Positions 57,024 through 60,794 of a stretch of DNA of 64,000 bases are shown piece by piece (the first letter of the stretch is position 1; each line of letters starts with the position of its first letter). This DNA is from Candidatus Eremiobacterota bacterium. Its GTDB lineage: Bacteria; Vulcanimicrobiota; Vulcanimicrobiia; Vulcanimicrobiales; Vulcanimicrobiaceae. The translations under genes were made by a program, and so were the position numbers. The stretch spans positions 62,001-126,000 of the forward strand of contig JAFAKB010000064.1 of the NCBI GenBank assembly GCA_019235885.1, written 5' to 3'. The notes below the pieces were generated by a model, which made no database searches, was not told the DNA's origin, and was given only the letters and a program-made list of their open reading frames with translations.

Positions 57024-59636
57024 GTGATCCGAAGCATCGCCGCCAACGGGCGTCCTGATCTCGGCGGAGTTTTCCGTCCGATCGATCGGCCGCGCGTGCT
57101 CGAGCGCCTGGCGACTGCGGCGCAGTACCGGATCGCGACCATCATCGCGCCGGCGGGCTTCGGGAAATCGGTCGCGGTGAGGCAGTACTTGGCGACCGTC
57201 GCCTCGTCGGTCGTCTACGACGTGCCGCCCGACGCCGCGACGCTGCTGCCGTTCGTGCGCGGTTTCGCCGACGCGCTCGAAGGAGTCGTCCCGGCGCTGC
57301 GCCGTTCGCTGGCGACGGCGCTCGACGGCGCGCGGAACTCGGCGACCCCGGGCCGCGACCTTGCGACCTGGGTCGCGACCCACATTCGCACGCTCGACAC
57401 GCTGGTCGTCATCGATGACCTGCACCACGGCGAGGCCGATCAGGAGATCTCGCGGTTCATCGCCGCGCTGGTCGACCGCACCAAGGACGGCCCGCGCTGG
57501 CTGTTCTCCTCGCGCAGCCCGCTGCAGCTCCCGGTCGCCTCGTGGCTCGCCTACGGCGAGTCCGATCTGGTCGTCGACGCCGTCGACCTGCGCTTCAGCA
57601 TCGACGAAGCGAAGCAGAGCGCCCGCGCGACCCGGGTCGCCGTGCGCGACGAAGAGCTGGAGCAGATCCTCGGCTTGATCGACGGCTGGCCGGCGGCGCT
57701 GACCTTCGCGCTGCGCACGTCCACCCGCGCCAGCGATCTGCGCGCGGTCTCGGCCGGAACGCGCGAGATGGTCTACCGCTATCTCGCCGAGCAGGTGTGG
57801 CATTCGCTGGACGACCGCATCCGCGGCTTCTTGCGCACCGCCGCGTTTCTTCCGCGCTTGGAGACGCGTCTTGCCGTGGCCGCCGGTTTCGACGACGCCG
57901 CGGCGATCATCGAGTCGCTGCGCGAGCGCGTCGCCTTCATCACCGTTCTCGACTCCGGCGTCTACAAGCTGCACGACCTCTTCCGCGACTTCGTTCAGCG
58001 CCAGATCGCGCTCGAAGGCGACGAAGCGCTGCGCGCCGCCCAAGTCACCGCGGGCAGCATCCTCGAGAAGGTCGGGCTCCCCGAGGCGGCATTGCAGCGC
58101 TACATCGAAGCCCGCGCGACCGACCACATCGTCCGCGTCATCACGACCTACAACTTCACCCTCCTCGACAACGGCCACTTGGACACGGTGGAACGGGCGA
58201 TCCGCACGCTGCCGAGCGGCAAGGTGCTGCAGCTGCCCGGTGTGCTCGCCGTGCGAGCCGCAATCGAGGACGCGCACGGGCGCGTCGAGCAAGCGGAGAA
58301 GTGGTACGCATCGGTCTTAGCGCAACCGGGCGGCGACGACTCCACGTTCGCGACAGCCGTCGCTTGGCGCTACGGGCTCCTGCTGTTCAACCAAGGACGC
58401 CTGGACGCGCTTCCCGTGCTGCAAACGTTTAGCGCTCGAGGCGACCTGAATCCAAGCGACCGCGCGCAAATCCTCGGCACGCTCGCGACAACCTACGCGC
58501 TGGCGAACGATCTCGACAAAGCAAAAGAAACGCTCTCCGAAGCATTGGAGCTCGCCGAGTTCGCCGACGACGACACGCGCACGCGAACCTACGGGCGCGC
58601 CGCCACGGTGGCGTTCTATGCGGGCGACGCCGCATCGGTCGAACAGTACACGCGTGAGGCGACGCGGCTCGCGATCGAGTGCGGGGCGTTCGGGCTTGCC
58701 GCGCGTCTCTTTTCGGCGCTCGCGTCGCAGAACTGGTTCGCGGGCCGGATCCCGGTTGCGGCCTGGTACGCGACGCAGGTGGCGACGAACGCCGAGAAGG
58801 CCGGAAATCCCCAGATGCGCGCGGTCGGGCTGCGGACGCTGATGGACATCGAGGGCGAACGCGGGAACGCGGAACGCGTCGCCGAGCTGGAACACGAGTT
58901 GGGTCAGCTTTCGTATCGCGGGCCTGCCGGCATCATGGGCTGGCTCGTCGGACGCGCCATGGCGTTGACATGGCGCAAGCAGTTCGCCGAAGCGCAAGCG
59001 CTGCTCACGACCGCGTCGGACAACGAGCTCACGCCGTACCAGCAACGGCTGCGCTACGCCCTTCTCGCAGTCGTGTCCGCCGCCGCGGCAAACAAGCGCG
59101 CGTCGAGCGACGCGCTGGCGGGCTACGAGCGCGCCGTCGAGCGTGACACCGATCCGCGGCCGGTCTTCGCGCGTTCGCGGGCGCTCGCCGAGCGGCTCGC
59201 TGCGCTCGCGAATCTTCTCGTCGGGCGCAACGCCGTCGCGCAACGCATCCTACGCGCAATCCGCGGCAAGCGCGAGGACCTGGCTGCGTTCGACGCGGTA
59301 CTCGGGAGCGTGCTGCTCCGCGAGCCGGACGGCATTGCCACGGGACTGCGCGAGATGCGCCTTGCCGGGCAAAGCGGCTATGCCAAGCTGATCGAGATCG
59401 TGACCGCGGCGATCCTCGAACCCCAGGACCAGACCGACCAGAACGAAGCGCTGACCTCCGCCGAGACCGACGTCCTGCGCGCGATGGCGCGGGGACTCTC
59501 GAACCAAGCGATCGCGGACGAACAGGGACGGACGATCAATACGGTCCGCTCGCACGTCTCGTCCATCCTGCGAAAGCTCCAGGCCTCCAGCCGGGGTGAG
59601 GCCGTGGCAGCCGCCCGCCGGCGGGAACTCGTCTAG
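57024..59636 (+). CDS. MalT/LAL-type LuxR transcriptional regulator
   Basis: 870 residues. N-terminal STAND NTPase: Walker A in APAGFGKSVAV (about 43-50), Walker B LVVIDDLHH (about 130-138). The middle 450 residues are TPR-like helices that would sense a ligand (YIEARATDHIVRVITTYNFT, ILGTLATTYALANDLDKAKE). The C-terminal LuxR HTH (about 805-870) is LTSAETDVLRAMARGLSNQA, TVRSHVSSILRKLQASSRGE. Such regulators activate transcription after binding an inducer. GTG 57024 is used; no strong ribosome site. It is followed by a hairpin, a candidate small peptide and an HD-GYP gene. Confidence 0.92.
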   Translation: MIRSIAANGRPDLGGVFRPIDRPRVLERLATAAQYRIATIIAPAGFGKSVAVRQYLATVASSVVYDVPPDAATLLPFVRGFADALEGVVPALRRSLATALDGARNSATPGRDLATWVATHIRTLDTLVVIDDLHHGEADQEISRFIAALVDRTKDGPRWLFSSRSPLQLPVASWLAYGESDLVVDAVDLRFSIDEAKQSARATRVAVRDEELEQILGLIDGWPAALTFALRTSTRASDLRAVSAGTREMVYRYLAEQVWHSLDDRIRGFLRTAAFLPRLETRLAVAAGFDDAAAIIESLRERVAFITVLDSGVYKLHDLFRDFVQRQIALEGDEALRAAQVTAGSILEKVGLPEAALQRYIEARATDHIVRVITTYNFTLLDNGHLDTVERAIRTLPSGKVLQLPGVLAVRAAIEDAHGRVEQAEKWYASVLAQPGGDDSTFATAVAWRYGLLLFNQGRLDALPVLQTFSARGDLNPSDRAQILGTLATTYALANDLDKAKETLSEALELAEFADDDTRTRTYGRAATVAFYAGDAASVEQYTREATRLAIECGAFGLAARLFSALASQNWFAGRIPVAAWYATQVATNAEKAGNPQMRAVGLRTLMDIEGERGNAERVAELEHELGQLSYRGPAGIMGWLVGRAMALTWRKQFAEAQALLTTASDNELTPYQQRLRYALLAVVSAAAANKRASSDALAGYERAVERDTDPRPVFARSRALAERLAALANLLVGRNAVAQRILRAIRGKREDLAAFDAVLGSVLLREPDGIATGLREMRLAGQSGYAKLIEIVTAAILEPQDQTDQNEALTSAETDVLRAMARGLSNQAIADEQGRTINTVRSHVSSILRKLQASSRGEAVAAARRRELV

Positions 59637-59648
59637 CGACGAAACGGC

Positions 59649-59666
59649 CTCGTCCTTTCGGACGAG
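59649..59666 (+). terminator. Hairpin after the LuxR regulator gene
   Basis: Perfect 7-bp stem CTCGTCC-TTTC-GGACGAG starting 12 nt after the stop, followed by TGTTG. A plausible but weak intrinsic terminator. Confidence 0.55.
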
Positions 59667-59727
59667 TGTTGCCATCTCGGCTCCTTGATACGGTGAGGGC
59701 GTCCCCCGCATCGCTAAGGAGTTGTCT

Positions 59728-59799
59728 GTGCTGGAAGCTGTTCTCGGAATCGTCGGCGTCGTTACCGTGGTTTGCAATACCCCGCCGATGAGTTGCTGA
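59728..59799 (+). CDS. Candidate 23-residue hydrophobic peptide
   Basis: A short frame GTG…TGA with one of the best ribosome sites in the window (TAAGGAG, 6-7 nt before GTG). The peptide has an acidic N-terminus (MLEAV), a hydrophobic core (LGIVGVVTVVC) and the tail CNTPPMSC, with two Cys. It lies between the LuxR regulator and the HD-GYP gene, 26 nt before the latter. It could be a signalling peptide, a leader peptide or a small membrane protein. No homologue is known to me. Evidence is the ribosome site and composition only. Confidence 0.45.
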   Translation: MLEAVLGIVGVVTVVCNTPPMSC

Positions 59800-59825
59800 C
59801 ACGTGATGACAGGGGTGCTTTAAAA

Positions 59826-60794
59826 ATGGAAGGTCGGGCCGCGTTGGCGCGGCAGCTCGGTGAGACGAGGACGGACGCCGTCGAGGCGATCCTCGGTCGG
59901 CTTGGGCCCCGCTCGGCGGGGCAGGCTTCGGTCCTCGTGGTGCGGTCGCTGGTGTCCGCGCTTGCGACGGCGATCGAAGCGGCCAGTCCGGATGCCGTCG
60001 TCTCGTGGGGTCGGATCGCGCACGCCAAGTTGGCGCTGCCGGTGATCCACGACCTGGTATCGGCCGGGTGCGACGTCGCGGCGGCTGCGGGTGAGCCGCT
60101 CGACGTCGACTTTCCGGCTCTGCTCGTCTTCCTCGAGATCGTCAAGGCGCACGTCGCCGAAGCGTTCCCGCTCGCGCCGGGACAGCGGTTCGAAGACCCG
60201 CAGCGCACGACGAACGGCGTGATCGAAGGCGTCCTGGCGATGCTGAAGGCGCGCGACGAAGCGACCTGCGCACACTCGCACGCGACCGGCGCGTGGTGCC
60301 GCCGCCTCTCCGAAGCGATGGGGCTGCCCGCCGGCACGACCGACATCATCGTCAAGGCGGGCGTCCTGCACGACATCGGCAAGATCGCCACTCCCGACGA
60401 GATCCTGTTCAAGACCGGTCCGCTGACCGAAGCCGAGTGGGTCGTGATGCAGCAGCACGCCGAGTTCGGCGCGCAGATCCTCAGCGAGCTGCCGACTCTC
60501 GCCGCGTACGCGCCGATCGTGCGCGCACACCACGAGCGCTGGGACGGCACCGGCTATCCCTACGGGCTCAAAGGCGAGCAGATCCCGTTCGAAGCGCGCG
60601 TCGTCGCGGTCGCCGACGCCTTCCACGCGATGATCAGCGCTCGGCCGTACCGTCCCGCGATCGCGCAGCGCGAGGCGATGGAGATTCTGCGCGAAGGCCG
60701 CGGCACGCAATGGGACGCGGAAGTCGTCGACGCGATGATAGCAATGTTGGACGCGCCACGCTCGGTCGGGCGTCGGGAAGTGGCACTCGGGTAG
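59826..60794 (+). CDS. HD-GYP domain c-di-GMP phosphodiesterase
   Basis: 322 residues. The N-terminal 140 residues are helical and unknown. The C-terminal HD-GYP domain has CAHSHATGAWCRRLSEAMGL, AGVLHDIGKIATPDEILFK (HD), HAEFGAQILSELP, AHHERWDGTGYPYGLKGEQI (GYP intact) and VAVADAFHAMISARPYR. Predicted to hydrolyse cyclic di-GMP. ATG 59826 is used; a TTG at 59772 would extend the frame over the candidate peptide. No separate promoter is clear, so it may be cotranscribed with the peptide. Confidence 0.92.
   Translation: MEGRAALARQLGETRTDAVEAILGRLGPRSAGQASVLVVRSLVSALATAIEAASPDAVVSWGRIAHAKLALPVIHDLVSAGCDVAAAAGEPLDVDFPALLVFLEIVKAHVAEAFPLAPGQRFEDPQRTTNGVIEGVLAMLKARDEATCAHSHATGAWCRRLSEAMGLPAGTTDIIVKAGVLHDIGKIATPDEILFKTGPLTEAEWVVMQQHAEFGAQILSELPTLAAYAPIVRAHHERWDGTGYPYGLKGEQIPFEARVVAVADAFHAMISARPYRPAIAQREAMEILREGRGTQWDAEVVDAMIAMLDAPRSVGRREVALG

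Follow-up and report, generated by a model that had tools for sequence, protein, structure and literature searches.

The stretch of Candidatus Eremiobacterota DNA analysed here (64,000 nucleotides, referred to as the window) raises the question of what a very short frame encodes that lies between a LuxR-type regulator gene (57024–59636, 870 aa) and an HD-GYP gene (59826–60794, 322 aa, ATG at 59826). The original prediction had described a frame of 23 codons behind a strong Shine-Dalgarno sequence at this place, and this is what the DNA contains. TAAGGAG at 59715–59721 precedes a GTG start codon at 59728, the TGA stop codon is found at 59797–59799, and the frame (59728–59799) specifies MLEAVLGIVGVVTVVCNTPPMSC. 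All of these features are on the forward strand. The start codon lies 91 nt past the stop codon of the LuxR gene, and 26 nt separate the peptide stop codon from the ATG of the HD-GYP gene. The region delimited in the original prediction began at 59649, which is the first base of an 18-bp palindrome that it left unmentioned.

Coding capacity and distribution of the short frame

Conservation of the frame in close relatives had been named beforehand as decisive, and each of the eight orthologous loci (L003-L008, L010, L013) keeps an intact frame; their LuxR proteins are 61–70% identical. The orthologous frames begin about 90–92 nt past the LuxR stop codon, mostly behind AAGGAG, and encode the peptides MINAVLASLAVVGTIVCSFVPPMGA, MIDVIVSAGIVAAAIAVCAYIPPQGS, MIDALLIIATVACLVPPMGG, MTDALLIIAAIICTVPPMAG, MLTAAVAVALVVVVCGTTLPIGN, MITLITVAVIAALEAIAFTVIPPIG, MIAAIVATIAVFAAVAVCYVPPMGG and MNSTTFATVTVIVSAAVFYIPPMGG, the start codon being ambiguous for MITLITVAVIAALEAIAFTVIPPIG (L008). 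For nine independent pairs drawn from the wider family, a codon test yielded a pN/pS of 0.43, and none of 2000 randomisations came out as low. On their own, the two pairs that belong to the clade of the window gave a weak signal (0.20/0.29 and 0.25/0.30). As a chance control, we applied an objective filter that asks for a Shine-Dalgarno sequence, a length of 18–50 aa, at most one K or R, hydrophobicity and a P within the last eight residues. Downstream of LuxR genes, 50 of 88 regions were positive, compared to none on the reverse strand and a mean of 0.52 (maximum 3) in dinucleotide shuffles. Conservation, codon test and control scan together support, computationally, that the frame is conserved coding sequence of the translated type.

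Since an alignment of the peptides alone is too short for a profile search, in which true matches sink into the noise past the close relatives, we read the DNA downstream of LuxR genes instead. A search of relatives for the same kind of peptide after LAL-type LuxR genes had been suggested, and it recovered similar peptides at 60 loci, which are spread over 52 genomes from 22 genera, all within the same family of Candidatus Eremiobacterota. This list was compiled by hand; its unbiased counterpart is the filter scan of the 88 regions. A further LuxR-peptide locus is L119, and another three belong to a second family within the order. The single-type forms measure 10–46 aa (median 25, most of them 20–36 aa). 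The peptides are hydrophobic, with a hydrophobic stretch of 12–17 residues in most members, and 53 of the 60 are entirely devoid of K and R. Their conserved part is a short proline-containing C-terminal tail: P occurs within the last ten residues of 57 of the 58 single-type forms, 46 of them have PP shortly before the stop codon, and tails without PP exist as well (LPIGN, QPIGC, SPTYS). The shortest form, MAPTLPPIHM in L090, has 10 residues and lacks a hydrophobic segment. In the window, the tail reads CNTPPMSC (codons at 59773–59796, forward strand). It is a putative source of a mature signal, as it corresponds to the conserved part and to the unit that is repeated in tandem in L126 (see below). 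The Cys-x6-Cys pattern that had been singled out in this tail did not hold up. In relatives the second Cys is A, S, G or N or is absent, the first is absent in two of nine loci, and the proline tail is kept instead. A functional disulphide was rejected because the pattern is not conserved.

A scan of the collection with the LuxR protein returned six loci, exclusively from Candidatus Eremiobacterota/WPS-2 metagenome-assembled genomes, and in the relatives plus the class, matches at an E-value of 1e-30 were confined to two families (f1 and f2). The genome of the window itself holds a second, paralogous unit (L081, G000:C56:27500-33500) with the order regulator, peptide, MYQLA protein, HD-GYP. 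Its peptide MADALSIAFFSVLNAVVGIAHVCATAPAIPPITN has 34 aa and ends in PAIPPITN, the MYQLA protein (122 aa) has no confident Pfam match, and the regulator of about 492 aa consists of TPR-like repeats and GerE without an ATPase; we call such regulators class II. A class II sister unit with MMTRFASPSIDVLFFTQPIGC (L084) is present in genome G006, which putatively belongs to Vulcanimicrobium alpinum. LuxR and palindrome searches of this genome found neither the window-type LuxR nor the window palindrome. V. alpinum WC8-2 (DSM 115291) is a cultured, Gram-negative-staining member of the phylum (PMC9758169).

The regulator and its putative operator

The regulator had been assigned to the MalT type, and this assignment is borne out by AAA_22 and GerE matches above the Pfam cut-off and by a match to MalT (8bob, E 9.1e-26). 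Its architecture is that of LAL/MalT-type proteins of about 900 aa, with an N-terminal AAA ATPase, a TPR superhelix and a C-terminal GerE domain; the Pfam TPR_12 match scores 22 bits, below the cut-off of 30.1. No Pfam match to an autoinducer-binding domain was detected in the LuxR protein up to an E-value of 1. AF2 models of the window LuxR and of the L081 regulator (pLDDT 84.9 and 85.5) display a long TPR superhelix. Foldseek relates them to PH0952, a STAND protein with a TPR sensor, and to MalT, and the TPR part to LGN, with modest TM-scores, as expected for flexible superhelices. LGN binds linear peptides in its groove; TPR similarity alone is no proof of a peptide ligand. Helical repeats and GerE are what both regulator classes have in common, and the repeats are thus the likely peptide sensor.

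The 18-bp palindrome CTCGTCC-TTTC-GGACGAG (CTCGTCCTTTCGGACGAG, 59649–59666) is located directly after the LuxR stop codon and before the peptide gene, and is identical in nine of nine loci. Among 60 relatives, nine genomes hold the window-type LuxR, and each of these has the palindrome in a single exact copy, which the other genomes lack; the sole further match, with one mismatch, is in a distant genome. A regulon search of the own genome recovered one exact operator and none at one or two mismatches; hence no remote targets were found in this genome. A -10-like TANNNT box, TACGGT (59689–59694, forward strand), follows 22 nt past the palindrome and would place the transcription start site at about 59700; upstream of it no -35 consensus was recognisable. 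This arrangement is found throughout the family: in 46 of 60 loci, a 7+4+7 palindrome with five or more of seven pairs is followed at 21–23 nt by a TANNNT box (shuffle mean 2.3), and stricter pairing leaves 37 of 60 with at least six pairs (shuffles 0.3) and 21 of 60 with seven (shuffles 0.0). Provided that the TANNNT box serves as the -10 box, the centre of the palindrome falls near -43, the position known from class II activation by LuxR proteins. The half-sites differ by lineage (CTCGTCC, CTAGTGA, CTACTTA, CTACCCA, ATGAGGC and others) and co-vary with the GerE recognition helix, which in the window is RTINTVRSHVSSILRKL (residues 836–852, codons at 59529–59579, forward strand). The Mantel correlation over 51 loci is 0.77, uncorrected for relatedness, and was reached in none of 2000 permutations. 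The single copy per LuxR-holding genome, the geometry and the co-variation with the recognition helix are thus good evidence, of a computational kind, that the neighbouring LuxR binds the palindrome and controls mainly its own unit.

We also considered the palindrome as a transcription terminator and rejected this, since it has no T-run, is kept identical in sequence and stands at operator distance from the -10-like box. Nor does the palindrome correspond to an RNA element listed in Rfam, where no match exceeded the gathering score.

Operator-like palindromes were also seen in other settings. In L111 (G000:C70), L113 and L115 the LuxR gene is followed by such a palindrome (CTACCTAATCTTGGGTAG and similar) and by no recognised peptide; these are perhaps receptors with the same wiring and another ligand. 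The closest diverged LuxR (L101, G009:C265, 48% identical) keeps the palindrome in a variant form, CTCATCCTTTTGGACGAG, together with a TATGCT box. The fetched DNA of L101 contains neither peptide nor HD-GYP, which looks like decay.

Neighbouring genes and precursor forms

A unit of peptide, LuxR and HD-GYP, as originally proposed, exists and is widespread, but HD-GYP turned out to be a frequent, optional output that does not define it. In the genus g44, seven loci (L142, L144, L147, L148, L149, L151, L152) combine LuxR with a peptide, e.g. MLSLAIALILALAITPPDPL, and no HD-GYP motif was found in the downstream DNA fetched for them (the L147 stretch is short). Because this genus keeps the LuxR-peptide pair without HD-GYP, the peptide goes with LuxR and not with HD-GYP. 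LuxR-HD-GYP pairs without a peptide occur in L105, L107, L109-L112, L114 and L116, and the two genes overlap in L105, L107, L109, L110, L112, L114 and L116. The HD-GYP protein of the window shows the defining combination of an HD_5 domain (137.7 bits), the HD motif and HHExxDGxGYP (here HHERWDGTGYP), and is predicted to be a c-di-GMP phosphodiesterase and the putative output of the unit.

In g44 (L142-L153) we also noticed a conserved ORF starting MDEYFIGAGALLTAGP, which follows the peptide, or the LuxR gene where the peptide is missing. Its L148 member has no Pfam match and is succeeded by a response-regulator-like gene.

Beside the single-copy forms, the family includes precursors of other types. 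In L126 (MYASRISSISVVPVGGAVSVVPVGGAMSVVPVGGA) the tail is present in triplicate (VVPVGGA x3), and L108 carries five copies of ADSAGGYVK behind a hydrophobic start. In L119, MRKFLAILGLGASLIALSACTGN is followed by six heptads ending in IPSS, and L155 has a lipoprotein-type start and then five heptads of the SIQPFPV type. Starts of the lipoprotein type, judged by eye, are found in L102 (with a LAAC lipobox), L119, L155 and L167-L169; as for the short forms, the majority do without a basic n-region. The precursors of L167-L169, from the second family of the same order, end in GG[LM]PPN[LH], e.g. MTRVLAALALGASILGLAACSGGASSITPPTQSVTQQGQHPDSGGLPPNL, and they also sit behind a LuxR gene and an operator-like palindrome. 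The repeat length of 7–10 residues agrees with the size proposed for the mature peptide, and the lipoprotein-type and tandem-repeat precursors point to a signal that would be exported and processed. Counted against this reading are the 10-residue L090 form and the fact that, in most peptides, the basic residues that open a classical export signal are missing. The LuxR-HD-GYP pairs that have no peptide likewise weigh against the circuit proposed below. OppA-type (SBP_bac_5) proteins, of which the own genome has 19 matches, are widespread and therefore not specific.

In L167 the gene after the precursor (L167:772-1767) encodes an HD_5 protein (42 bits) whose HD motif is seemingly lost.

A proposed signalling circuit and its alternatives

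We consider it probable that the 23-aa gene encodes an exported propeptide and the LuxR gene its receptor, and that both form a self-inducing peptide signalling circuit with an HD-GYP output. Coding frame, LuxR-peptide pairing, the geometry of operator and -10 box, the co-variation of operator and helix, and the receptor architecture are supported computationally. According to this model, the propeptide would be exported and cut, releasing a C-terminal fragment of about 7–10 residues from within CNTPPMSC. The fragment would re-enter the cytoplasm, for instance via an Opp-type importer, and bind to the TPR superhelix of the LAL-type LuxR. The activated LuxR would then bind to 59649–59666, centred about 43 bp upstream of the predicted start site, and activate a promoter that lacks a -35 box. 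As a consequence, the peptide would rise by positive feedback, and HD-GYP would rise with it and lower c-di-GMP. Export, processing, re-import and binding are inferred, as are activation as opposed to repression and the direction of the c-di-GMP change.

The original prediction had left open whether the peptide is a signal or a leader. The signal is the part we favour, and three other explanations have to be weighed against it. Translation of the short frame, perhaps with pausing at prolines, might set the expression of HD-GYP in cis by attenuation or translational coupling. Ribosomes can pause at PP motifs, and two features would suit such a leader: 46 of the 58 single-type peptides have PP close to their end, and in the window a mere 26 nt lead up to the HD-GYP ATG. 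However, an attenuator would need a terminator or competing hairpins ahead of the gene it regulates, and no terminator-like site was detected; the RNA folds more weakly than all 200 shuffles (z +2.31). Moreover, the peptide persists in g44, where the fetched downstream DNA shows no HD-GYP motif, PP is not universal, and lipoprotein-type and tandem-repeat precursors would be unexpected in a leader, which we thus regard as unlikely.

It is improbable, too, that the product is a resident small membrane protein, the hydrophobic segment of which would stay in the membrane while the tail anchors LuxR or HD-GYP there or modulates them and no signal passes between cells. Small membrane proteins often regulate their neighbours, and the 12–17-residue hydrophobic stretch and the missing basic n-region are compatible with this role; the L090 form without a hydrophobic segment, the tandem repeats of the tail and the lipoprotein-type precursors are not what it predicts. 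The lipoprotein-type precursors of L102, L119, L155 and L167-L169 also speak against an intracellular co-effector, that is, an autoregulatory ligand which would bind to the TPR domain of LuxR straight after translation and never leave the cell. Pairing with LuxR and a feedback operator fit this explanation equally well, and no clear export signal is present in the short forms; all in all, we give it little credence, though it may hold for the short forms. The exported propeptide remains our preferred reading.

For the family as a whole, we lean towards a new type of peptide quorum sensing. Regulators that combine GerE and a TPR sensor, some of them also a STAND ATPase, would sense the peptide of the adjacent gene and drive that gene via a private operator. 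The family would span an order of a Gram-negative-staining phylum, use single-copy, lipoprotein-type and tandem-repeat precursors, give a cell two or more private channels and frequently act on c-di-GMP. No LuxR-plus-peptide system of such kind was found in the open-access literature (subscription papers and preprints lay outside the scope), nor was any quorum-sensing work on Eremiobacterota found there. LuxR-family signalling is known mainly from the sensing of acyl-homoserine lactones, and cytoplasmic transcription factors that directly bind small peptides are known mainly from the RRNPP systems of Firmicutes. If correct, these two modes would come together in a LuxR-family receptor whose peptide the cell encodes itself; such a system would link peptide signals to c-di-GMP and provide a testable means of communication for the mostly uncultured Eremiobacterota.

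With LuxR/LuxI, the proposed circuit would share the GerE domain, a palindromic operator near -42 and positive feedback on the signal gene, but there is neither an autoinducer-binding domain nor a LuxI, and the signal would be made by ribosomes. LAL/MalT-type regulators have the same N-terminal STAND-type ATPase, helical-repeat sensor and C-terminal GerE. The inducer of MalT is maltotriose, whereas here the neighbouring peptide gene is the proposed source of the ligand, and the class II members lack the ATPase. If this holds, it would suggest a type of ligand for orphan LAL/MalT-like regulators. Enterococcal sex pheromones, cut from lipoprotein signal sequences, are a parallel to the proposed signal in that a small precursor of the lipoprotein type yields a short hydrophobic peptide; in contrast to them, it is the C-terminal tail and not the signal sequence that is conserved and repeated here.

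By analogy, the nearest functional counterpart would be the RRNPP systems, and the circuit would work like SHP/Rgg, with a small propeptide beside a TPR transcription factor and feedback wiring. RRNPP systems have been delimited by a propeptide of 10–100 aa adjacent to a TPR transcription factor, a mature signal in its last 4–10 residues, a receptor of 250–500 aa with an N-terminal XRE-type HTH (PF01381) before the TPRs, and export by Sec, or by PptAB for SHP (PMC10075063). The propeptide size, the adjacency (at 60 loci) and the TPR sensor conform to this description. The receptor length in the window (870 aa, against about 492 aa in the paralogous class II regulator of L081) and the HTH, which is a C-terminal GerE (PF00196) and not of the XRE type, do not, and we therefore do not file the system under RRNPP. 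It also differs in the ATPase of the class I receptor, in the order of repeats and HTH, in a propeptide without a basic N-terminal region, and in a host phylum with a Gram-negative-staining cultured member. Since that survey was directed at Firmicutes and viruses and dropped clusters whose repeats are N-terminal (PMC10075063), the LuxR-peptide family would not have been reported there.

Finally, other LAL-LuxR genes of the relatives have neighbourhoods of their own. In L157 (G102:C44:10200-21136) four of them stand in tandem with almost no intergenic space. Another clade (L158, L160, L120) adjoins secreted lipoproteins that, by eye, resemble S53 (sedolisin) peptidases, some of which have GLPG-rich repeats near the N-terminus; these neighbours are possibly a related sensing or processing module.
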